Source: Apteryx mantelli (Eukaryota > Chordata > Aves > Apterygiformes > Apterygidae). Taken from it: a stretch of 64,000 nucleotides of DNA. Each line of letters opens with the position of its first letter. Within the stretch, counting starts at the first letter, position 1. The notes beneath the pieces are model-generated. The model did not search any database, was not told where the DNA came from, and saw only the letters and a program-made list of their open reading frames with translations. A program made the translations under genes and the position numbers. Of the stretch, positions 3,001-23,000 are shown piece after piece. The stretch lies in contig NC_089979.1 in NCBI RefSeq assembly GCF_036417845.1, positions 123,351,415 to 123,415,414 on the forward strand, given 5' to 3'.

Positions 3001-4853
3001 TTACCTTTTCTGCTTGCACAAATGAATTGAAGCTGCCTCTTCAAAAAGGTAAAATAACAGGATGAATCATACAGAAAATGTTGGCAAAAGTAATAGCAAT
3101 TTCAGTAGCATAACATGCCTGTGCAGCAGCTCTTAATAAAGTCTCCCTGTTTATTTGTAGATGACAAATTTAAGAAACCTGAATAAGTACTTTAGTGGGG
3201 GTAGGGGAGGAATTGTAATTCATCTGTGGTGGAAGAGCTTGAATTCTTAACTACTTCGGTGGAACTTTTATTTAAAAGAGAATATTCTCAAAAGAAAAAA
3301 ATAATCTTGGTGTATGAATAAAAAACAGCACTTTTTTCTGATGTCTGCTTAAAATCACCTATAATCAGATGCATCTAGATTGAATAAAATTAAGGACCTA
3401 GAAAACACTGAGTGAACAGGTTAAAATGATAAAACTTTTTTTAACTCAACTTCTGTACACTTAACTAGACCTTAAATGTCAGTTGTGGTCTTATTTGTCA
3501 TGTTTTTTTGTTTTGTTTTAAATGTCTTTTCATTCGATTGAGTGAAATCCTCTGTGCTACTTACAGTATAGTCTTCTTTCTGCTAGCTTCCAGGCTATTA
3601 ATCAAAGCTGAACCTAAATCCAAACTCTAAATTGAAGACTTCATGCAGTAATTTTGGGAATATGTTGGGTAAACTTGAAATCAGTCCATCAGATTAAGTA
3701 TGTGGTTATATCTGTAGTCTTTCTAATGTAGCCATAATATTGTCTAGGAGATCATGGTCAACTCCCTTTACAGGGAAAACTATATCATTAAGTGTAACAG
3801 TGAAAATGACTGTCCTTGAAGTCCCCTCCCCCACTGCATGTAGTCAAAAACAAGCGTTTATACTTTCCCTGTATAGGAGAGACTTGGAAAAAAATGTTCT
3901 TTTTCACATGAAACTGGTCAGGTAATTCTCATAAAACTGTTTTTAGCCTTAATTTTATAACCTGAGAATGATTTCCTAGAATTTACTAATGTCAGTCTTA
4001 ACAGATATGTGCCCATCTCCTCCCCACCCCCCCCCCCAAATTAGAGTGGCAAAACCTTGCCTAATGTCCAAATTCAGCTTGATTACTCTGTAAACTATAA
4101 AATGGCATATGAAGTTCTCCAGCTCCAGGACATATGCTTAGAAATGGAAAGTCTTCAAGAAGAGTCTTTGGCAGTAGTTGAGCTAACTGTTTACACTGCT
4201 GATGCTGTAAGGTTCATTAGTTATCCAAACCCCCTTTGGAGGGGAGAGGATAGGTGGGATTAGGGGTGGGATGAATGGATCTGGATTGTAGGTTTACCAT
4301 TGTGTATGTACCCAGAACACACAAATTTGGGTCAGAATGTAAGACAATGGCTTACTGCTTGCCGGATCTTTTTAAAGCTTCTTTAAAGTTGTAGAAGAGA
4401 AGAGAATCATAGAAACTAACCCTTACAGGGGTGAGGAAACAATTTGTGTTACTTGGCCTGGCATTCCATGCCATTTGATATGAGAGTTTTAAATAGTATT
4501 CTTCTGATTGTACAATGAGCTTATTGTGACGAGAACTCCATTTTAGAAAGATTTTTATTACCATTTCTGTTGCAGGCAAAAGACTAAAATTGTGTGAAGT
4601 GCTTAACTACTTCTTAAGATATCTTTTAATCATGTATAAGAACCTTTCTTGCGTTTGTAACTACTTAGAAATACAACTTGAAGAAGAGGTATGCATTTTG
4701 AATAAATAAATGAGTTGGGCAAAGCCCAACATATTTCGTGACTTTAATGAGCTCAGTCACCCTGTTAGTACACTGCTCCCTTCTTGTCCTAAGTGGGTTT
4801 TGATGTGTAACTTTGATTAAAGATTGAGTGATATTCAACTTCTGTCTCTCCAG
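1..4853 (+). other. DYNC1LI1 intron 1 (3' part)
   Basis: AT-rich non-coding sequence before exon 2. I see no CpG island and no exon 1-like sequence here. It contains an ancient CR1-like relic (about 1480-2260), an A9-G7 composite run (1401-1418), a C11 run (4027-4037) and short T runs. The rest shows nothing I can name. Confidence 0.7.
1480..2260 (-). mobile_element. Ancient CR1/L3-like LINE relic, antisense
   Basis: On the plus strand it follows, with heavy decay, the antisense order of old amniote CR1-type ORF2 ends as I remember them. There is a region like 'frame end, sequencing of the flank, actaaac' near 1660-1700, then 'aactgaggctta' near 1785, then the segment 'gtcatctgcaaactttact' with 'gttattaatgaaaatg' (2077-2135), then 'ctctctaggagcagtaact' near 2195. 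The order of blocks is the evidence; no frame survives. Boundaries are approximate. Confidence 0.55.
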
Positions 4854-8704: not shown

Positions 8705-11700
8705 TGTTATTGTAAACTCTGAAATCTGTATAGAAGTTGAATAATCTTGGCCTAATAAGCCTTTTTCTCCAGGTTGTTGAAATGGATCTTTCCCTGTTGA
8801 TTCAACTAATGCTTTTCTAGGTGGGAACTCACAGGGCTCCAATCAGTTCAGAGAAGGTAGGGATGGATTAACATAAATCAGGGAAAAAGCAGTGAGAATG
8901 TACTAGAGAAATTGGCCACTAGTGTGCACAATTCAGCTAAATTGTTTTGCTGCCTGAGTTTTTAGCTGAATCAGGCTGTGCTACTCATGGAAAAGTAATC
9001 AGTGGTGTTTTCAGATCAAATGTTGATTCTGCTGTGTGAAACAGGACGTGATAGGAAAGGTATAGGCATTTGATGCCTAATGCTGCATCCTTGACTGCAG
9101 CAGTAGTAAATGACCATGTAATTAGAGGCTTGGGTGTATGCACTGGAACCTAACAAGAGAGTTACAAGTATAACTTTATCTTTTGTTTCTAATTCTTGTT
9201 ATATTTTAACTTATCCTTCCTGCTAAATTTTAAAGTAGTATCTGATCTATTGTGAAAACATACCCAATATTTAATATGGTATTAACTAATAGTATGTTTA
9301 TATGCTAATATAATAGAGGTGTTTGCTCTCTTACCACTGCAAAACAGATGTCCTACTGCTACTGAAAGCTGTTAAATAACTAACACTTGTTTATTCTATT
9401 TTTCTTGCTTATTACTACTGTAGATTCACTGTACAGAGAGAAAGAGAAGTGTGGACATAGGATTTCTAGGTCATAGTGGTGTAAGGTAGCAGCCAAGCAA
9501 TATATGTGAAGCTTACTTCTGTTTATTCTAACAACCTGTTCCATTAATTATGCCAAGAAGAATACAAGGAAATTGACTTTCTTCAGGAGATGTATCGAGT
9601 AATAGTAGTTGATAGCAACTGCCTAGTGGTTCCACAATGATTAAAATACAATTGGGTTAACGTCCTTATACTGACACTCTTTTCCTCTGATCATGTTCTT
9701 GTACCTGCTGATAAAGAAGATCTTGGATTTACTAGCTCTCTCCTGTGCTGCATAAAACAAACAGGCAGCACTCAAGGCATGTTCAATTCTTTCCAACATA
9801 AAGAAGCAGAAGTACAATACAATAAACAGTACTAGAGATTAATGGCAGTGGAAATCGTTGTTGAAATAATACAGTAGCTGCTCTTTTAATACAACTTTTT
9901 TTTACTTTCAGTGGTAAGAGATTTCCAGGAATATATAGAACCAGGCGAGGATTTTCCAGCTTCTCCACAGAGAAGAAATACTTCATTACAGGAAGACAAA
10001 GATGACAGTGTGATTTTACCCCTGGGTGCTGATACACTAACATGTAACTTAGGCATTCCAGTAGTAGTAGTTTGTACAAAGGTTTGTTTCATGTTTTAGG
10101 TTTTTTTGCATATTTTGTTTAAGGAACTCTGTCAGTTGTGGATTTGGGGTTGGAAGCATGTGGTTCTCAAGTCATTCTGAATACCTAGCGTAAGAATCCT
10201 TAAGTGTTCAGTGTTGAAGGTTGCCTGTCTTCTGAAAGTCCCGACTGTGTGTTAATTTGGGAGTAGTTTTTCCTGCAGTCATACCAGTTTGCAGGGAATT
10301 GAGGAATACCTCAGACCTAGTTTTGCTCACAGAAGTGAGCTAGTCAGTAACTAACTAGAATACACCTTAGTCTGCTAAATCTTCCTTTCACACAAACAGT
10401 GTTTTGGGTTTTACTTTTTTAATATTTCTGATCTTTCTCTGAAGATGACTATATTTGAGGGTTCTGGTTAGTAAAGTGTTTTTCTACTAACTTTCCTTAA
10501 TTCTTAGGATGCTTCTGTGACCTGTTTTGATTTCTGTAGATATGTGAGAGTATTCTCAGTCTAAAGAAAAAGTGGTGTAGTTCTCTTGTGATCTTTCTTT
10601 CTGGCTCTTCAGTTCCCATGGGCATTAAGCATACTGCATCTGCAGCCTCTGCTGGCCCACAGTGAAAGAATAAGCTCCTTGACACAGGTGCTGTTTCTTC
10701 ACTGCAAGGCTAACCCTCTCATTTGCTACACTCAAGCACTTCTGTTCTCTCTTGCTGGCTATCTATCCCTCTCACCCCATGCTGTGCACCTCCCCCCCAC
10801 ACACACACTTTTTTTTTTTTTTCTGCTTCTGCATTTCTTGCTTTTGGCTTTCTTTGCAAAGGGCTAGCTAGTCACTGGCCAAAAAGACTGTTCTATAATA
10901 CCCCAGTATGCAGAAGCATCATGCAGAGAATGCTGTTCTCATTCAATAGGTCAATCTTCAACAGAGACTTTGGGTTATCACATAGAGTTGGGGGGGGGGG
11001 CAGGGGAGGGAGGCAGAGGGGAAGTAAATGTGAAATCACAATCAATTTAATTCCCAATTTAATGCTGACCACAGTATATGCATGTCAAGCTGTTTATTAG
11101 TTTAAAAGAATTACTTGTTCAGTTATCCTTATAAACTATCTCAGCAGATTTTTGTTCTGCCCTCCCCCTCCCCCCAGTTGTGAACTGGAGGTGTAGCAGC
11201 ACTGCTACTTCAGTGATAACTGAAAGCTAATTTTGTGTTTGACTTGACAGTGTGATGCCATCAGTGTTCTGGAAAAAGAGCATGACTACAGGGATGAACA
11301 CTTCGACTTCATTCAGTCACATATCCGACGGTTTTGCTTACAATGTATCCTTTAACACTTCATAAGGATAATAATGACTCCATTAAATCTTTGCATTAGT
11401 TATGACCAGCTTAAAAGGGTATTTGTGTCTGTACCAAAGAAGTACACTAAATTCCTTCACTGTAGCAGGAAGTCTGGTTCAGTTACTCTCTGTAGACAAT
11501 GTTGAATGTAACTTTTCCTTTTTTCCTGTTGAGTGCTGTTAACTCTTTGATGGAGATGCAAGAGTCTGACATGTGCCCTTACAATCAATTTATTTACTTG
11601 CCTTCATTTCCATATTAACAGGCAGTTCCCAAATCAGCAAGCCTTAGATGACAAGTTTCCTGAAATAGTAACAGCAAGACAATTCACTTAACTATGATCG

Positions 11701-14700
11701 TACTTCAGATAAACATAAGGCATATTATTTTTTTCATCCTGAATATTCAGTCTCTCTTCAGTAATTCTACAAGATAATGCGATGAGGGAAGGAAGTACAA
11801 ATTGCTGTGGCAAAGATCCACTGGCTTTTCTTTGCTTGGGTAGAGACAGCATGCATAAGCTGTCACTGTGCTATTGTTCTTAAATTTCATTGTTCAAGAA
11901 AGTGCATAATATACTGTTTAACTAGACAAGCTAAGATCTAGAGTTTAGATGCCCATAGTATGTCTACATTGTGCCACCATCATTCATGCTGTGGTAAAGC
12001 GAAGCTTAAATACCATCGTAAAGATAGTAATTGACAGATGAAAAATTAGTTCAAGAACCTGAGACCTCAGTTTAATTCTGAGATGGCACTTCCTTCAGAA
12101 AGCTTTGAAGTCCTCATTTTTCAAAATGGAATGATGGGTGATTATAATGAGGTTTGCCAGACAGAGGAAGAATAGGAAAGATTAATAGGAATTGGTCACT
12201 GTAACTGTGTAGCCAATACACAAATTGGAGTTCTATTCAAATCGTTGCTGAATGTGAATCATACCCTATTAGATAACTTTTCTCTTTCTGAATTTGAATT
12301 GCATATGTAGAAATAGGTTATTGGTTTTGGCATGTTCTAATCTCAGGTAAAAATTATTTTAAACCTCCCTGGCTGCTTAGTCCTGTGTATAAGCAGTATT
12401 ATTTTGATATTGACCCATGTCAAGAATATCAAGCACTCTCTTCATCTTTTAGTAACTTAAAAACTGATACACAGCACAACCGGTTTACCTTCATTTGATT
12501 GTAAAGGAGGTCGCTGTATAATGTATGAGCTTGCTCCTCTAATTTAAATACCCAGGAGAGGAAGAGAGAGGCTGTTTGGCATTTTTGAGGCTACTAGTGT
12601 TAATGCTGGAGTATCTGTGTGACTTCTCTATCGAGTCCTGCAAGATGGGATATGATAAGAGATAGGAATACTGCATGAAAACTCTCAGATGGTAAAAGCA
12701 GAAGACAGTTTTGAAGACATCATAGTGAAACTAGTGGTATCGTGGGCTTTGAAAGTGAGAGGAGCCTATAGAAGCAACAGATAAAGTTGGCCTAAAATAA
12801 ACCCTGGAAAAAATTTAAACTACGGAATAGTTTGTTTCAAAATTAAATTCTAGAAGTTGTTTGACCTAATTGAATTTGTATTCTTCTTTTAAATTCTCTA
12901 AAGTTGATATCCTTTAAAATAAACAAAGAAAAAAAAAGGGGGGGGGGAATTCTACTATCTCTTACTAACCACAAAACTGAATTTTCTTTAACAAGTTTAT
13001 TCAGATGGGGCAGCACTTATTTACACTTCAGTAAAGGAAAACAAAAACATTGATTTAGTATATAAATACATAGTCCAGAAATTATATGGATTTCCTTTCA
13101 ATGTTCCAGCTGTTGTTGTGGAAAAAGATGCAGTATTTATGTAAGTTATCTGCATTACTATGTATATATGACTGCACAGTGTATTTGTCCAAGACTCTAA
13201 AAAGCATAGAGGCCATTTTTTGTTTACACTTTTTAAAGTTCAATGTAACATTCTCATGAGGAACAGACTGGGGGTTTGGTGAGTGCCAGTGGATCAAGAC
13301 TGCAAATTGTCACTACCACAAAGAGAAATGTTAAACCAGGAGACATTTCTCCTCTGTATTACAGGGAGCAAACCCCAATCTCTAACTAGTTGCACTAGCC
13401 AAAAAACAGCTTGCATGGAAGAAGGGGAGTTATTTCAGCTTTCCTGGCTTTCAGCTCTGTGCAAATCAGGATTGCCCACAAGGATAACCTGAAGTACCAA
13501 CAGAATTTAAAGCCAAATGATTCTTTATCTAGTCCTGCAGGTTGGGATAATGACAAGAAGATAGGAATATTGCATGAGAACTTTCAGACACTAAAAGTGG
13601 AAGACAGTTTTGAAGATATCATAACAAAGCCACCAGTCAGGAAGGTAAATTGAGATGTTTTAAAACAAAAGTAATTTTGCTAATATTTTGCCATTCAGCA
13701 TTTTTTATTTACCTGTCAGTTTTTGGAGTGCTGCTTGTCTTTGCTTCCGGTTTATCACAAGACCACTTTGTGTGTGTTTTGCTTATTTTGTCTTTATTTT
13801 GTTTTCCAATTTCTTCTTAAATTAACAGAAAATCATTGGGTGTATTTGTGTTCTGTATAGCTTTTCTTCAGCTTACACAGTGTCTTCTTCTGGCACTATT
13901 ACAATGTTCAAGACTACAAATATACTTGTTTTTCTCTTAATGCCTACTCAGTATTGAAAAGTCCAAGTGTCATTTAACTGTTGGTCATGGTTGATTTAGT
14001 ATTTTTAAGAACACTTCATTATGCTCTGAATTATGAATAACTTCATGATTTTTTTTCCTTATGGAAACACAAAGCTTGAGACAGTGTAAAACCAAAAGTA
14101 GGCATGTTAAAACAGGTTCTAAATACATTCAGCACATTCTTCTCTTTCAGACTGTTCAAAGACTTTGACAGAACTACATGAAAACATATGTGGGATTGTT
14201 GAATAAAATGACAGCAGCAATGAACCCCTGTGTGGAGAAGTTTTTGAAGGAAAATATCTCTGTGGCTTTTTAGAACTAAGCTAAGAATTTGGGACTGATT
14301 GTAATTTCCAAGTTGAGAAAACCAATACTGTGTCCTTTCTGTAGTTTTTTTAGGGAGACATAAAGACATACAGTAGTATATGAAATTCTAAGGTGCCAAG
14401 GAAAATACAACTAACACTTTTTTACATGCTTATAAGCTTCAGGCCTGGATTATAAATTTTGATATTGATATTTCCACACTTATCGTGGCAAGGCTTGTTT
14501 GTTTGTTTTGTAGTGGGCTTATTTGGAAGAGTGTTTGTGATCTGATACACAGAACTGGGATCTAAGATGTCTCTGTACAGTTCATGTACCAGTATAATGA
14601 TGCAGGTGAAGAATCACTTTTGCCATAGTTACCCATAAAATAATACCTACCAAGCTTAGGCTAGGATAAGCTCAGAGACATGTAAGCATGCTGCAATGGA

Positions 14701-17700
14701 GTGTGCGTCTATGAAGAGAGACTTAAATGTATATCAAATGCTTTAAATGCCTGTAAAATAAGTATTTCCTACAGGTCCTGAGACCCTTTGAATATGCCTT
14801 GTAACCACTCCCTTCATTCCTTTTTTACTGCATATGTAATGGGTCTTTCCACAAGGACATCTAGAACCTTATGCCAGCCAGGTAGAAGGACTTAATGATC
14901 ATTCTATTTAATTTCTAATTAATTAGACTTAAATGGAGTCCTAATGTAGCAGTCTTAAAAATAAATACAGAAGATGCATAAAATACTATTTTGACTGCAG
15001 ACCGCACTTGCTTAATTATTGAATGCCTTGGTCATATTCATCAAGAGATATAAAAGGCAAATACTTTTTTAAATCAAAATGATGTTAATATTTTTGTATT
15101 GCAGTTTGTTCATGAAAAAGAAATTGTAGCAGAAGATGACCAAGTGTTTCTTATGAAGCAGCAGGTAATTTTCTGTCCATAAAAACAAGCAGCCAGTGTT
15201 TCACTTAACAAGTCCTGTTAAAGAATATAAAAACCGAATTTGTACTATCTATCTGTTTATTTATCTATTTATTTTTGCAGTCGCAGTTGGCGAAACAACC
15301 ACCTACCGCTGCAGGAAGGCCAGTGGTTAGTAATAAGAATTTTAAATCCCATCACATGAAAATGATTCATTTTCATATGTTTAGGGGGTTGGTTTTTTAA
15401 CCACTACCAAATATTCTTTGATGTAAAGAGTGTTGTGGGGTTTTTTGTTTTGTTTTGTTTTTTAACTAGTGATTAAAGTCTGCATCTTATACTGCTCTGA
15501 AATGATGATACTTCTTCCCAGCTAGGCATGACTGCTTATACTTATACTGGCAGCAATGGCTAAATGTCATGGTTTACTTCCTGTGCATTAGAGTGAATCT
15601 AAGCAACTAGCTGACTACTCCTTCTGTCCTAGATGTGTGTCAGGGAGCAAATTGTATGTCGGCTGAATTCCCCGGTCAGTTGTATGTCCTGAACCTGGCA
15701 CTGCTGCTCAAAGAATATTAGACTCCAGCATAAAATTGAGCTCAAATGAAAACTATGGCATCAGCTACACTTAAATAATGTATTTAAAATATAAATAACT
15801 AAAAAGTAACACAAGTTTAATGGGGAGCATGTGATCTTATAAAGGTGGCTCTTACTTTTTAGATGATCTGCAATTTTGCAGAAACATGACTTGTTATCTG
15901 TGAAGTAGTAAGTAATGCTTTTCTCACAGTTTGCCTTTAATCCTTCCCACAATGCTGGTGGTACGTGTTTTCTTTCCAAGACACTTGATGTAGTTCCTCT
16001 GATCCAGTCAGTGCAGTTTTCATTACGATCAGAGGCACTACTGAGCAACAGAAGGTATTTTCAAGTTTCTCGCAGAGATGAAATGAAAAGCTTCAGCAGT
16101 GCTTTAGCTGTTGGGCTGAAGTTAACATTTGTAATAATGTTGGGCAGGTGTGGGAAAAATCCATATACAATCAGTAAAATCAATCTTGCATCATTTCAAT
16201 TGCATGGGATGCTACATTATCATAAAAACCAGATTGAGCCGTGAGAAACAAAATAATGCTTCATTTCATGTGGTCTTAGATAGCATGATTTTAATTCTGT
16301 AAAAGTTTGACTACTTCAGCTTTGACTTTTTTTTTGTTTTTTTCCTTTTGCATAGGATGCCTCACCAAGAGTTCCTGGAGGGTCTCCTAGAACACCAAAT
16401 AGATCCGTAACATCAAACGTTGCCAGTGTTACACCTATCCCTACTGGGTCCAAAAAAATTGATCCCAATATGAAAGGTACCTTTTCTTGTAAGGGGGCAA
16501 ATACAATTGGGAAGTAAAATAGCTCCTTTTGCCTGCTTGCTTTAATATGCTTGTTTAGATTGACTGATACACAAGGTCAGTATTTATTTAGAAAATGTGT
16601 TGTGTGTATTTTTTTTTATCCCCCCCCCCCCCCCCCCTTATAGCTGGAGCTACCAGTGAAGGCGTCCTGGCTAACTTCTTCAATAGTCTGCTGAGTAAGA
16701 AAACTGGTTCCCCTGGTGGCCCTGGTGGTGTTGGTGGCAGTCCTGGAGGAGGTGGCACTGGAGGTGCTGGCAGCAATTTACCACCATCAGCAAAAAAGTC
16801 TGGTATGATTAGTGGTAAAAGATCAGCTCATAACCTAAACTGAGTGTGATGCATCATTTCTGTTAATACAGGTTATCAGGAGTTTGAATATATTTAATTG
16901 GGTGTCTTATTGGATACGTTTTTTTCTTTTTTTTTTTCTTTTTTTCTTCACAATATTGTTAGTATTGCCTTTCTTGTGGCTCTCGGAGGATCAAAGAAAA
17001 CCTTTTATATGGCTGTTTAAGTCTGAGTTGTGTCCATATAACTTCCTTTTTTTCTTTTTTCTTGCCTCACCATCCCTATTAATGGCTTACAGTAGAAGCC
17101 ATGTTTTTATTAGTCAGATACACTGGGACTTGAAGTTGATTTTTTTTAATTGTATTTTTTAGCAATACTGTCAGTGTTAAAAGATTATTTTTTTAATTTG
17201 TTAGTGATCTAGCTCTTATTGGATAAAAGTTTTGATTTGATTGACTTTGACAGCATGTAAAACTACTTACATATTTTCCATTGATAGCTTTTTTTTATAT
17301 GATGTCACTAGTATTTAGTATTCATCTGAAATGTATAATAATGACTGCTTTAAAACTAATTGCAAGCCTATTCTGGTGCTTCTCATTATTTCATAGCAAA
17401 CGTTTCTGCTTTAAGAACATATATACTGAACTTATATACTGACACTCTCCTACCACCCTCAAGAGCAGTGCTGCATTTAAGTAGGAGTGCTTGTGATTCA
17501 TTTGTACTTGATGTTAGTGTTTACTTTTAAAGGAAAAACCACTTGGTTTCCCACTAACATTTTGTGTAGACTAACACTTGAATAGGCTTTTTTCCATATG
17601 TACACCTCCCTTTTCTATATGCAAAGCTCAGTTGGCAGAACAAAGTGCGCGAGTACTTCCTAATCTGCTGCAGGCAAAGTCAGCAGGGCTAGTCTGAACA

Positions 17701-19227
17701 ACTTGTGGAGATTGAATCAGCTGCATTCATTTGAACAATGTGAGATGGAGAGAGCACCCACTGAAATATCTTGTGGGGAGTGGCCTGCAGTTGGTTTGGG
17801 TGATGCCAGTGAAATGAAGGTAGCACTCTGGAGAGTGGATGTGTCCAGGGCCGTGGTAGAAATTTCAAGAACAGAATTAAAATATTAAGGAGGAAAATGT
17901 CTTCAGAAGTCTCCCTACTCTGCAACAATAATTAGAGAATGGCCAGTTTAATGTGGCAGAGGACTAGCCTTTCAAGGAATTGTTATAAATCAAAAAAGTT
18001 TGTCTTAGATGTGGGCTCTACACCTTCCTCACCACTTACTGTCTTGTACTTAGTGTTATCTATAAAAGTCACTTATCTGAAAATTGGCTGTTAAAACAAT
18101 GGTTTGGAGTTTGAGAATTATTTTCCTCATGGCAATTATGGGAAATTTCTCTGCTTATAAGCTGTAATCTTAACTGGTTTGCTTCTGATATGATGTTAGC
18201 TTTCTTTAAATAATTTGAAGAACAGCACAGTACACCCAGCAAAAACTAGCTGTGTGGGTGGTTTCCGTTAAGTTTGTATCTTCAGAAAGGCTGTGTTGAA
18301 CCTTGCTAAAGTTACCTAGGTGTCAAAATTTTCCTTTACAGCCTGAAAAAAACATGCATACTTGTAATGGCATATACTTTGAAGTCCTACACTGTCCTTT
18401 TCCATATAGTCTTCTCCACTGCTGTGACAGAACATGTGTTTGTAGAAGAGGATAGAAACCTAGACTGGGGAATAAGAGTTAAAAGTAGCCTGGTGGAAAA
18501 AACTGTGTTTAAACTTGGATCAGGTCCCAGTGTGATTGCATAAATGCTTGTGCCATTCCAAGTTGGTGAGGAAGTAAATGGGTGAGCAGAGAAAGGGATT
18601 TGCTGCCTATGTGTGTGCACATGCACATGGGTAGTGATGTCAGCTTTATGCTGACCAACTATATGTGAAACTGATTTTCAAGGTTAGTGTGTGATGAAAC
18701 ACCTGACTTAAGTTCAGAATTACTTTAAAATACTTCTACACAGTTTTCTGTATCAGCTGTATTCTTAACTGCTAACCTTTACTAGCTTTTCTGTATGAAG
18801 AACCACTATAAGGCATAAAAATGTACTGACAATTAATATGTAATTAGGGAAATTGCTTTGAGAAATCTGAAACATGCCAGAATGTGTTTTGATATCTCTT
18901 CCCTTTTTCTTGCTATTGATTTTTAGTATGTCTTCACTCTGCATACAGAGTATGAAATAACAATGTTTAGAATTTGTCTAAAGCAAAAACATAGTTTTTT
19001 CTCTTTTTGTTTTTTGTTCATTTCTAAAGGTGCTTCTTGAGGAAATAAAGATACTAGAGGCTTTCCCAAAACTGTTTCATAAGCATGACTAAACTATATG
19101 CTTGTCTTTTGTAGGCCAGAAGCCAGTTTTAACAGATGTTCAGGCAGAATTGGACAGAATTTCACGAAAACCCGAAATGGTCTCTCCTGCAACACCTACA
19201 TCTCCTGCAGAAGGTGAAGCATCTTGA
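4854..19227 (+). CDS. DYNC1LI1: Cytoplasmic dynein 1 light intermediate chain 1, exons 2-12 (5' partial)
   Basis: Dynein light intermediate chain: a Ras-like G-domain packs on the dynein heavy chain tail, and a flexible C-terminal tail binds activating adaptors (BICD, Hook, Spindly and similar families), coupling the motor to cargo. Eleven coding exons join in frame with GT-AG borders: 4854-4970, 6704-6934, 9912-10081, 11251-11344, 13005-13140, 13533-13644, 15105-15164, 15281-15325, 16356-16476, 16644-16802 and 19115-19227. They give 451 complete codons plus stop, against 523 aa for the human protein as I recall it, so about 70 N-terminal residues (exon 1) lie before the window. Visible landmarks are the P-loop GEDGAGKT, a TKCD motif resembling G4, SP/TP sites in exon 10, adaptor helix 1 ([14 protein letters not shown]) in exon 11 and helix 2 (VQAELDRI) in exon 12. 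The end GEAS-stop matches human. LIC1 rather than LIC2 is chosen from the near-identity recalled along its length and from the CMTM6/7 neighbours. Confidence 0.96.
5709..5730 (+). repeat. Poly(G) run, 22 nt
   Basis: Uninterrupted G homopolymer in intron 2; prone to length change, G-quadruplex formation and sequencing error. Confidence 0.95.
6090..6113 (+). repeat. Poly(T) run, 24 nt
   Basis: T homopolymer followed directly by ccag, so it resembles a strong splice acceptor, but no known DYNC1LI1 coding sequence follows it. Confidence 0.95.
6704..6934 (+). CDS. DYNC1LI1: DYNC1LI1 exon 3 (G-domain core)
   Basis: 231 nt between a ttgttgtag acceptor and a gtgagt donor. It encodes the G-domain core, including [18 protein letters not shown], the strand [12 protein letters not shown] and the helix [13 protein letters not shown]. 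The borders are phase 1 at both ends, so this exon could be skipped without a frameshift. Confidence 0.95.
7541..7624. repeat. GT/AC inverted repeat (16-bp arms)
   Basis: The left arm GGGTGTGGGTGTGTGT (7541-7556) is the exact reverse complement of the right arm (7609-7624). A 52-base spacer of GT, TTTG and C runs separates them. A transcript could form a long hairpin. Confidence 0.9.
8672..8700 (+). repeat. Poly(A) run, 29 nt
   Basis: A homopolymer in intron 3. No retrocopy or SINE body is recognisable upstream of it. Confidence 0.95.
9912..10081 (+). CDS. DYNC1LI1: DYNC1LI1 exon 4
   Basis: 170 nt between tttactttcag and gtttgt. It encodes [20 protein letters not shown], then an acidic stretch and the strand [10 protein letters not shown]. 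With the next exon it forms TKCD, at the place of the NKxD base-recognition motif of GTPases. The donor (AAG|gtttgt) is weaker than its neighbours. Confidence 0.95.
10082..11250 (+). other. DYNC1LI1 intron 4
   Basis: Non-coding. It contains a pyrimidine-rich ACAC/T run (10788-10822), a G-rich run (10989-11020) and C runs before the exon 5 acceptor region. No other feature is seen. Confidence 0.7.
11251..11344 (+). CDS. DYNC1LI1: DYNC1LI1 exon 5
   Basis: 94 nt after gacttgacag. It encodes [20 protein letters not shown] and [11 protein letters not shown] and ends on the first base of a Tyr codon. The donor is gtatcc, which is weak beyond the GT. Confidence 0.94.
11345..13004 (+). other. DYNC1LI1 intron 5
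   Basis: Non-coding except for the decayed exon 7 copy at 12636-12745. An A-then-G composite run lies at about 12930-12948. The remainder is AT-rich and unremarkable. Confidence 0.75.
12636..12745 (+). pseudogene. Decayed duplicate of DYNC1LI1 exon 7 inside intron 5
   Basis: This stretch aligns with exon 7 (13533-13644) over nearly its whole length. By hand count, about 77 of the first 91 exon bases match, including a 20-base run (GAAGACAGTTTTGAAGA and its flank are shared with one change). Two single-base deletions break the reading frame, near 12653 and 12660. The acceptor AG is kept (tcgag against tctag) with a similar pyrimidine-rich flank, but the donor is gone. No trace of exon 6 or exon 8 lies beside it, so it is a local genomic duplication and not a retrocopy. 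It lies upstream of exon 6, out of order, and would be out of phase if spliced in. Confidence 0.88.
13005..13140 (+). CDS. DYNC1LI1: DYNC1LI1 exon 6
   Basis: 136 nt between atttattcag and gtaagt. It encodes [20 protein letters not shown], then a helix and strand ending [12 protein letters not shown]. This is the C-terminal part of the G-domain, with TSVKEN at the place of the small-GTPase G5 SAK-like motif (my comparison). Confidence 0.95.
13533..13644 (+). CDS. DYNC1LI1: DYNC1LI1 exon 7
   Basis: 112 nt between ttctttatctag and gtaaat. It encodes [18 protein letters not shown] and then [15 protein letters not shown], close to human LIC1. This is the exon that has a decayed second copy about 0.9 kb upstream. 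Confidence 0.95.
13645..15104 (+). other. DYNC1LI1 intron 7
   Basis: AT-rich intron sequence; I see no exon, repeat array or transposon in it. Introns 6 (13141-13532) and 8 (15165-15280) are short and likewise empty. Confidence 0.65.
15105..15164 (+). CDS. DYNC1LI1: DYNC1LI1 exon 8
   Basis: 60 nt between ttttgtattgcag and gtaatt, encoding [20 protein letters not shown]. Both borders are phase 0. It marks the end of the folded domain before the disordered tail. Confidence 0.94.
15281..15325 (+). CDS. DYNC1LI1: DYNC1LI1 exon 9 (45-nt microexon)
   Basis: Only 45 nt: [15 protein letters not shown], between atttttgcag and gttagt. Both borders are phase 0, so skipping it would remove 15 residues in frame. 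It matches the human [15 protein letters not shown] segment. Confidence 0.93.
15326..16355 (+). other. DYNC1LI1 intron 9
   Basis: Non-coding. It contains a short (GTTTT)n run near 15438-15462 and a long pyrimidine tract before exon 10. An open stretch at 15915-16244 shows no family resemblance. Confidence 0.65.
16356..16476 (+). CDS. DYNC1LI1: DYNC1LI1 exon 10 (SP/TP-rich tail)
   Basis: 121 nt between ttgcatag and gtacct, encoding [17 protein letters not shown] and on to SKKIDPNMK. The proline-directed SP and TP sites lie in the region known in human LIC1 to be phosphorylated in mitosis; I infer the same use here. Confidence 0.94.
16620..16637 (+). repeat. Poly(C) run, 18 nt, in the exon 11 polypyrimidine tract
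   Basis: 18 consecutive C, preceded by a T8 tract and followed by ttatag and exon 11 (16644). It therefore makes up most of the splice-acceptor pyrimidine tract. Confidence 0.95.
16644..16802 (+). CDS. DYNC1LI1: DYNC1LI1 exon 11 (adaptor-binding helix 1)
   Basis: 159 nt between an acceptor preceded by 18 C (16620-16637, then cttatag) and donor G|gtatga. It encodes [20 protein letters not shown], the amphipathic effector helix whose paired Phe residues contact dynein adaptors in human LIC1, followed by a Gly/Pro-rich linker. The donor is weak; reading through it adds 13 codons to a stop at 16843. Confidence 0.95.
16803..19114 (+). other. DYNC1LI1 intron 11
   Basis: T-rich intron. The frame from exon 11 stays open for 13 further codons (stop at 16841-16843). 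Nothing else with coding or repeat character is seen. Confidence 0.65.
19115..19227 (+). CDS. DYNC1LI1: DYNC1LI1 exon 12 (C-terminus and stop)
   Basis: 113 nt after cttttgtag. It encodes [19 protein letters not shown] and ends SPAEGEAS, with TGA at 19225-19227. The VQAELDRI helix corresponds to the second short effector helix of human LIC1. Confidence 0.95.
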
Positions 19228-20065
19228 AGACACCAAATAAAACCAATTACTCAGTTTTCTGGGATGAATTCAAGCTTGCCTCTGCCTCTTCCTTCAGTGA
19301 CTGGAACTAAGGAGCTGAAACTTTTTTTTTTTTTTTCCTCAGAGAACACAAACAGTTGATGTCTGTTTTCATATATGTTGCCCAGCTTTACAAAAAGGAA
19401 CTGTACAGATGGAAAACAGTATCCACCATGTAGGACTACTGTTCACAGTGCAACAATAGTAAATTAACTTCTTTCTGGGTTTTGTTGGAAAGTCAGTGTA
19501 ATTCTGTAAACTTGCAAATGTGTTCACTTTAAAGTTAGAGGTTGCTTAGATTGGGAAAACTGATACACACCACAGGCACTTAATTTATATTGATCTCCTG
19601 ACCTGTTAGTCAAATTTAATACCATCTTAAATAGATTAACCTCTAAAGGCGAGAATTACTATGAGTTTTATGGAAGAGAAAATGATAAATTGCACAAAAC
19701 TGTAACAACAACAATAATAAACTCCAAATATATTTGAACACTTCATTTGGAATATGGCTGCAACTCTGTTTCATCTCCCCTGAGATTTTATACTGCAAAA
19801 ACCCATCCAAAAATTTCATTCCAGATGCAAGACCTGAAATTAATGGCCAGCTTGATTTTTTTTTTCTTTGATTAATTTCAGACACTGAATAAAAGATGTA
19901 TAAATAAAAAGCAGAGGTTAAATGTACAGATTATCAGTATCCAGATTTGTCTATGTATATATGGCTCAGCCTTAATGTCCACCTTTTTGTTTCCCACACT
20001 AGTTATGGTTTAAAATTGGTCATCAAAACTGTAATCGGTTAATAAAGTATTCTCTGCATTCAAAT
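19228..20065 (+). other. DYNC1LI1: DYNC1LI1 3' UTR (likely extent)
   Basis: Untranslated tail after the TGA. Poly(A) hexamers AATAAA occur at 19236-19241 (too close to the stop to be the main site), 19888-19893, 19903-19908 and 20041-20046. The last gives a roughly 0.8-kb UTR and is my preferred end. Another at 21411-21416 could serve a longer form. Ends are inferred from hexamers only. Confidence 0.55.
20041..20046 (+). promoter_or_regulatory. Candidate DYNC1LI1 poly(A) signal
   Basis: AATAAA about 815 bases after the DYNC1LI1 stop, followed within 30-60 bases by TG/T-rich sequence. It is the last of a cluster of hexamers. Confidence 0.5.
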
Positions 20066-23000
20066 TTAAATAACTTTCATTGAAGGCCTTGTGTTCTTCT
20101 TTGGTTACTGTTAAACTAAGAATGCAGTCTATAAAGTCTTGAAATATCGTTTTATCTCTCAGTGTATAATATTATTGGCCCACGTTTAAACTTTCTTAAA
20201 ACATCATTTCTGGAAGGAATTGGATGCAAGTCTGCTGTCTTTGTTCACTGGAGTAAAACTAGCTTATTGGATGCATAGGGTTTCCACTGTAATGTGTTTT
20301 AAAAGCTTATTAGCTACACTGAGAATCCTGCTGATGACTCTTCAGTATATTGTATGATAGCTACTTGCCTAGGATTAGGGCTGTACTCATTACTTAAAAC
20401 TTCCAGGACACAAATATCAAGCATCGCTTTACTGTTCTATGTCAAGCTTATGGCTTCTACTGATAGCCACACACTAGTAAGTGTAAAAAGCATATATTGC
20501 TCAAAAGATTGCTCTGAGACTTCTTTAATTTCAGCTTTTTTTGGTTTTTGTTTTTAAATCAACAAGAGTAACAGTTGGACCTCCTCTTCTTCAGGGCTTT
20601 TCAGAAGTCTGAAATAGTTGGAGAAATTAACTTCTTTAACGGAGACATGGTGGTACTCTGCTCCTCAAATTACCGCATTCTTTACAAATTGAGTTAACTA
20701 GTGGTTCTAGTGAATCACCTCTCTTCCTTCAAAATACATAAATTTCCTTGAGAACAACATACATTATATATATATATATATAGGTTTACTTTTCAAGGAG
20801 ATTTAGTGTATTTGTTGAAATTAACTCGGATTGAATGGTGGACTGACAAATTTGAGTAGAGATTATCTTAACTATGGATCGGTTGTTCAAACTAGAGTAC
20901 CTAAAATGTTGCTTCTGGCAGTGATTCAGTAAAGGTATCATATGGAGAAATGCATGACCTGCTGATAAACAGCTGTATAGAATAAATATGTCTTGGGGCA
21001 GTTGGGGGGAAAGGTTAAGTTTCTAATAATGGATGCGTGGCATGCATCAGTTATGCAGTTTATGTATGTAAACTTCTTGAAACACAACTTTAAATGCGCT
21101 TGAGAGAACCTGTCCGGCTCATAGTATCACCACTACACTTTCTACAATTGGAGGATTTATGTTAGTAGAGTGGAACTTCAGACAGTAACACTGTAAAATA
21201 CTTTTGTACAGTTCAGGTTTTAGAAAGAAAACTTTAGCTGCTTAAATCTTTAATTTAGTTCATTTGAGCATCTGTCAAAGCACAAGACCTTTGAAGCTGG
21301 AAAACTAAACATGTAATACATTAGGAGCTACTGCATTAGGTGGGCTGTTTTTGCGGAGGACAGGACAGGGGAAAACCTTACTAATGACTCTTTAGAATTT
21401 CACTTCATAAAATAAAGATCTTGAAACAAAACATCACTTCTGCATCTTTACAGCTTCTAAATATGTTTCTTCCCCAAAACTCTGCTAGCTGTTTGTTTTT
21501 TAAGGATTCTTACAGAAAGGTATATCCCTACTATGTCTTTTTATACTACAAGGTTAAAGTTCCTATGTTTGTAGCCCCCTTTGCTCCTTAATGTTCAAAT
21601 TTTCTTAAAGCTGCTGTTCCTATCTCTTCAGCCTTTTCATGCCATTTGAAAAAAAAGACCTTAAGGTACCTTTATCACATAAGGAAAACATTTAAGAATG
21701 TGTTTCTGTATAACTTGTTTGGTTTTGCTGCTTGTTTCCTTCTGATGAGACCAAGATTAGTTGGCTGGTTACTTTGTCCTCCTGGGTTGAAATTCCTGTG
21801 ACTACCACCTTGACAGAGTAGACTATTAAAGTGGGATGTACCAGAACTATTACACAAAATGAGTCTCTGTTAAAGGCCATTTTCACAAAATGTAGGGTCA
21901 GTAGATCCTCCCAACCTTTTCCTTTCTTCACCATCAAGTGGGGCCAAAAATAACTGGATAAAACAATGAAGCTAACTTGGAAAAGCAAACAACAAACACT
22001 ATAAAATAAATTAACCAAATAAATTCCCTTGCACTTTCAGGGCTAGTTCTTTGTAGATGAAGAACTGATTAGCTACTAAATAAATGCTTGAGGAAAAATT
22101 TTTTTAACCTCCTCCTCCTCTTTCTCTCCTGCACTCTCCCACATCAGTTCTTTATCTGTACTGGTTATAATAAAGCTGTTCTGAAGATCTTAGGCTTGAA
22201 AATTTGGGGTGAAAGGCCACTTTATTTCCAGACAGCTACTTCATATTTTTCAGCTGAAATGTGTCTCTCTCTGTAATGTACATATGCATTTTGGACCATA
22301 CGGGCTAGCTACCATACTATACTAACCTTAAATTTAGACTGAGATGTCTGAAATGTGAGTACCAGCCTGTTGGGCTGCTTGTGTCTCATGGTGAGCAAAC
22401 AATTTGCAGCAGGACACCTGCAGCTTCAAGAAGTGTTGCTTGTAGAACACCTCAGAGCTTTATGCTTCTCTCTGTGCCACACCATGTTTGTCAGACAAAT
22501 GGAGAAAAACAGTGTTAAGAGTTAGTCTAACCCTGCATATGGAAAATGCAAAAACTTGAATTTATTTCCTCTTGTGCCATAAAGGATACTCAGAAATAGC
22601 TGTTAAAAATGCTAACTTATATCTTCAGCTGTTTAAAAATCACACATTCTAACATGTTAGTATGATGATCAGTGTTTGTGAAATTCAGTTGCAATACTGA
22701 GCCCAAAAATAGAGACTCAAGAGCTGAAGAAGCTTCAGCAGATGCAACACATAGAAGTCTTTTGTGAGCTCTTCATGGCAGTACTCAGTATATTCCATTT
22801 GGTATCTAGTCATCTTACGTTTATTTCATTTAATGCTTGCAATATGCTGGCATATGCATCATGCTAAAGTCATGATCAAAAGGCGTCGTGATGCCTGTGT
22901 GGGAATATCAGAACCCTGAACAGGGAGAGAGCCTTGCCTCTGACTGGCTGACTATAGTGGAATTCCCCAAACTGTTCCGTGGCTATAAACCTCAACACCC

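Follow-up and report, generated by a model that had tools for sequence, protein, structure and literature searches.

Sequences that resemble an exon of the same gene are common within introns. The passage of Ivanov and Pervouchine (2022; PMC9013439) that bears on this subject counts 4,027 exon-like targets within the introns of human genes once annotated exons and repeats are removed, and according to the corresponding passage of the Exonize paper (PMC12343006), partial, inter-boundary and intronic matches occur in significantly more genes than full-exon duplications do. For mutually exclusive exons, the relevant part of a third paper (PMC6071210) names spliceosome incompatibility (U2/U12) as a mechanism. 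The copy described here, which lies in an intron of a dynein light intermediate chain gene, is most likely one more of the common intronic exon duplicates, in this case truncated, out of order and located in an intron with minor-class signals. It shares with the unannotated duplicates treated in the first two passages the presence of exon-like sequence in an intron of the same gene, and differs from them, as they are described there, in its truncation, in its displacement past a whole exon and in its U12-signal intron. We put the probability at about 85% that this copy is an inert, decayed relic of a short, local duplication at the DNA level. The copy alone matters little because intronic exon relics are common; it is nevertheless a clean, small example in which the likely causes of failure are legible, namely incomplete copying, the wrong intron class, the wrong phase and then decay.

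Joined exons 4-7 of the host gene match a solved structure of cytoplasmic dynein 1 light intermediate chain 2 (E = 1.5e-82) as well as the Pfam family DLIC (E = 5e-103), and the latter match bears out the placement of the gene in the dynein light intermediate chain family by the original prediction. The name DYNC1LI1, given by that prediction, is putative with respect to the paralogue DYNC1LI2. All features discussed below are on the + strand. Exon 5 occupies 11251-11344 and is followed by intron 5 (11345-13004), exon 6 (13005-13140, 136 nt, then the U2-type donor GTAAGT) and the true exon 7, the source of the copy (13533-13644, 112 nt, encoding 37 protein letters). Further exons near 4853 and 6724 were placed from motif matches and are consistent with the exon numbering of the original prediction if one more exon lies upstream and none has been missed between. 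A literature search found no paper on DYNC1LI1 together with 'exon duplication', and an exact 28-base pattern gave 0 matches in collections of prokaryote and viral contigs, as expected from their makeup.

The copy is found at 12620-12724, in intron 5 and upstream of exon 6, on the same strand as exon 7 and at an offset of 897-899 from it, so that the original prediction was right to call it out of order. It corresponds to 13518-13623 over about 105 bp, of which some 15 nt derive from the end of intron 6 and the remainder from the first 91 nt of exon 7; the acceptor side was thus copied in part, as had been claimed. Within the exon part (12636-12724 against 13533-13623), 77 of the 91 columns are identical, and the differences consist of 12 substitutions, 10 of them transitions, and two 1-base deletions. 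This reproduces exactly the hand count behind the earlier figure of about 85% identity. The pairwise alignment named in the original prediction, 12550-12800 with 13450-13700, gives a local score of 123, compared with a best score of 35 and a mean of 18.9 among 2,000 dinucleotide-preserving shuffles, and the blastn E value for the copy and exon 7 is ~1e-23. Across the window, that is, the whole 64-kb stretch of DNA analysed, the copy and exon 7 form the only non-self duplicated pair at E<=1e-4 with the low-complexity filter (dust) on, and no further exon 7 copies were found at that threshold. A 44-nt, 73% match at 21173-21215 (E = 0.15) was inspected and judged to be chance. Being significantly similar to an exon of the same gene and lying inside an intron, the copy is an intronic, degenerate exon duplicate; spanning 91 of the 112 nt of exon 7, it falls short of a full-exon duplication.

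The similarity breaks off abruptly at both ends, about 15 nt before the exon start and 21 nt short of the exon end. On the 3' side, the terminal 21 nt of the true exon (13624-13644) match 12725-12745 at only 8 of 21 positions, so the recognisable similarity ends at about 12724 and not at 12745 as first proposed. A match this poor (8 or fewer) has P = 4e-7 if the tail had decayed like the rest of the copy, and 12% of 5,000 random 21-mers from the window score as well. Beyond the exon 7 tail, 6 of 25 positions match, and in the 20 bases to the left of 12620 only 3-4 match at offsets of 896-899. Because the similarity stops 21 nt before the exon end, the exon 7 donor was probably never copied, rather than copied and lost. 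The earlier statement that the copy has no donor holds for exon 7's own donor, but a good U2-type GT site lies 30 nt past the end of similarity.

These limits also bear on the size of the unit that was duplicated. Duplication of exons 6 and 7 in tandem as one unit, followed by decay of the first exon 6, would fit the order of copy, exon 6 and exon 7 and the offset of ~897, but it should have left an exon 6 relic of equal age and about as visible as the copy itself, barring later deletion. Against the part of intron 5 that precedes the copy, exon 6 scores 16, where shuffles average 15.0 (P = 0.37), the comparison with intron 6 gives P = 0.67, and no such relic appears among the listed matches of an exon 6-exon 7 query; this decayed 6-7-6-7 arrangement was accordingly rejected, and we regard it as highly improbable. 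The broader search set exons 5, 6 and 7, intron 6 and flanking sequence against parts of intron 5 or intron 7 in 16 local comparisons (8 region pairs, with the exon or intron piece tried in either orientation and 300 shuffles run for every comparison), exon 6 being taken as 13006-13142. Its lowest P was 0.32, and in these comparisons the sequence before the copy showed no remnant of exon 6 or intron 6, and that after it no trace of intron 7. With no relics and sharp ends, it therefore seems that a piece of ~105 bp was inserted, not a whole exon or a two-exon unit. A processed copy derived from spliced mRNA was rejected because part of intron 6, ~15 nt, is included; in addition, no trace of exon 6, the neighbouring exon considered, adjoins the copy. 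That the copy is an assembly artefact or a misjoined haplotype is extremely improbable, as a divergence of ~14% with indels would be far above that of an allelic duplicate, and no observation was found in favour of this reading.

The preferred reading of an inert local duplicate would begin with the copying of this ~105 bp piece, made up of the 3'-terminal ~15 nt of intron 6 and the 91 nt with which exon 7 opens, to a site ~0.9 kb upstream in the same orientation, most likely by repair synthesis off a nearby template. As the piece would have lacked the exon 7 donor and the last 21 nt, it was probably an incomplete exon from the outset. Its later drift would comprise the two frameshifting deletions and ~13.5% substitutions, shared between copy and exon. 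As a short inserted copy with sharp ends, here ~0.9 kb from its source, it resembles the templated insertions from local template switching reportedly described for MMBIR in cancer cells (PMC8421209). Unlike in that system, the mechanism is here deduced from the product and the junctions as first formed are no longer readable; no clear shared bases were seen by eye at either end, and both ends have drifted.

The intron in which the piece landed carries the sequence elements of a minor-class intron. The U12 consensus has RTATCCTTY at the 5' site and a TTCCTTRAC-like branch site near the 3' end. Intron 5 starts with GTATCCTTT, which has 0 mismatches to this 5' consensus, and has the branch site TTCTTTAAC, with 1 mismatch to the consensus and with its branch A 13 nt before exon 6. 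A branch match with <=1 mismatch at 8-21 nt occurs at only 15 of the 4,553 + strand AG sites in the window. The 5' sites of introns 4, 6 and 7 show 3, 4 and 5 mismatches to the U12 consensus, and the best matches to the U12 branch at the 3' ends of introns 4 and 6 carry 3 and 5 mismatches. With both elements present, intron 5 looks like a minor-class (U12-type) intron. DYNC1LI1 occurs in none of the 12 papers listed, out of 267, that match on minor-intron terms, and neither DYNC nor dynein occurs in the main texts of two minor-intron papers. A newt transcriptome paper reportedly matches DYNC1LI1 together with U12.

The class of the host intron would make the copy even less usable, because intron 5 seems to be one of the rare introns that a different splicing machine removes. 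The copied acceptor AG (12634-12635, context CTCTATCGAG) is assigned to the major class because introns 6 and 7, which flank exon 7, begin with major-class donors; its best preceding U12 branch match has 4 mismatches. It should not pair with the donor of exon 5, since the acceptor is U2-like and that donor is U12-type. The site is also weak. On a scoring matrix it has -0.56, compared with 10.77, 3.75, 2.76 and 2.62 for the acceptors of exons 4, 5, 6 and 7, the last of which, the acceptor of exon 7 itself, is thus also modest; among the 570 AG sites between 11400 and 20000, 39% do at least as well. The suggestion that the copy could act as a decoy acceptor is thus not supported, the site being both weak and U2-like within a U12-looking intron. 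The arrangement does bear a likeness to mutually exclusive exons with mixed U2/U12 sites as treated in the passage cited above (PMC6071210), in that an exon is duplicated in a gene with a U12-type intron and the site types would decide which joins are possible. The copy departs from the exons of that passage in lacking an open frame, a copied donor and any sign of use, and in lying inside a U12-type intron rather than bordering one.

Two cryptic donors lie downstream of the copy (12754/12755 and 12906/12907). The first is the U2-type site mentioned above, a donor-like GTGAGA at 12755-12760 (AAA/GTGAGA, cut after 12754), which scores 6.8 against 4.84 and 6.36 for the donors of exons 4 and 6; 2.7% of the 514 GT sites in 11400-20000 score at least as well. 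The second is a perfect U12-type 5' splice-site-like sequence, ATATCCTTT, at 12907-12915 in intron 5. Such a site is present in 2.4% of 500 shuffles of the intron 5 interior and in 0.85% of 2,000 shuffles of 12756-12990, but it was found post hoc and is possibly due to chance. The strength of the 12754 donor relative to those of exons 4 and 6, the modest score of exon 7's own acceptor, the perfect U12-like site at 12907 and a mild excess of synonymous changes, discussed below, are the observations that count against inertness. A one-mismatch U12-type 5' match lies at 12878 on the same strand, 29 nt before the perfect site. Tandem U12-type 5' sites can, according to a passage of a review (PMC8329584), activate a U2-type acceptor upstream of them; the 12878/12907 pair bears a weak likeness to the arrangement in that passage, given the spacing of 29 nt and the mismatch.

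Inclusion of the copy leads to an early stop in all six modelled splice routes, one of which is out of linear order, and the open frame expected of an alternative exon is therefore missing. Joined to exon 5, the copy is in the wrong phase and a stop arises at the 7th codon when counting starts with the last base of exon 5; joined to exon 4, it has a stop as its 10th codon. By matrix and consensus scores, the splice sites give a mixed picture: a weak U2-like acceptor follows a U12-type donor and the copy's own donor is absent, but the two cryptic donors lie downstream and an exon 4-copy-exon 6 route via 12907 is consistent in site type. The view of the original prediction that this is a failed duplicate agrees with these results, as the decayed, partial exon 7 copy offers no open reading in any of the six routes.

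The same stops could in principle serve a function, with low-level splicing of a live poison exon or decoy adding a stop and so lowering the output of the dynein light intermediate chain. A conceivable route would run from exon 4 (U2 donor) to 12636 and then from the U12-type site at 12907 to exon 6, excluding exon 5. For this, the site types are compatible, the acceptor at 12635 being U2-like and the 12907 site a perfect U12-like match, the stop falls at the 10th codon of the copy, and compromised U12 splicing typically activates nearby cryptic U2-type sites according to the passage of the review already cited (PMC8329584). A passage of another paper (PMC8034651) points the opposite way, as inhibition of minor-spliceosome components left cryptic exon use there wholly unaffected. 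The acceptor is moreover matched or bettered by more than a third of local AG sites, and perfect U12-like 5' sites number 5 on the + strand of the window, counting that of exon 5, and 2 on the opposite strand. Low-level use of this kind is thus decidedly improbable. The specific version, in which a cryptic exon at 12636-12906, matching exon 5 in its site types (a U2 acceptor and a U12 donor), would replace exon 5 between exons 4 and 6, always with a stop, and would act as a poison exon dependent on minor-spliceosome activity, is slightly more improbable again.

The substitutions in the copy invite a different question, namely whether it was once in use. Taken singly, 7 of the 12 are synonymous with respect to exon 7, which has P = 0.0098 under a single-branch model with changes random on the exon 7 code. 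Both deletions fall within columns 1-26 of the exon alignment, and past them the remainder of the copy is open in the frame of exon 7 (24 protein letters). These features would suit an originally full-length duplicate that was used as an alternative exon before it fell out of use and had its 3' end replaced or lost, and a partly constrained copy is modelled with a fit no worse than that of a neutral copy (P of 7 or more synonymous changes 0.34-0.55 at omega 0.5 and 0.72-0.96 at omega 0.2). However, a neutral copy beside a constrained exon (half the opportunity) yields the same synonymous count with P = 0.085-0.149. Neutral decay is not rejected under this two-branch null, and constraint on the copy, which the simpler null suggests, need not be invoked. 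The unrecognisable 3' end and donor, the phase misfit after exon 5 with its stop at the 7th codon and the U12-like appearance of the host intron likewise stand against former service as an alternative exon, which is improbable overall. Judged from the sequence, the copy may still have passed through a period of use.

Under the preferred reading of inert decay, the age of the copy can be estimated roughly. A rate of 2e-9 per site per year, with a quarter of it for the exon, would make the copy ~59 My old (28-94 My by count error), and over rates of 1.2-3e-9 its age would range over 19-157 My; these figures serve as a guide only. An age of tens of millions of years, with a wide error, is thus the rough conclusion, and if related genomes carry the copy, it would become a datable marker of local duplication in the gene. 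At the Val of KVED, the true exon has GTG and the copy has GCA (Ala). Mammalian DYNC1LI1 presumably has Ala at this position, and the Ala codon of the copy may preserve the older state.
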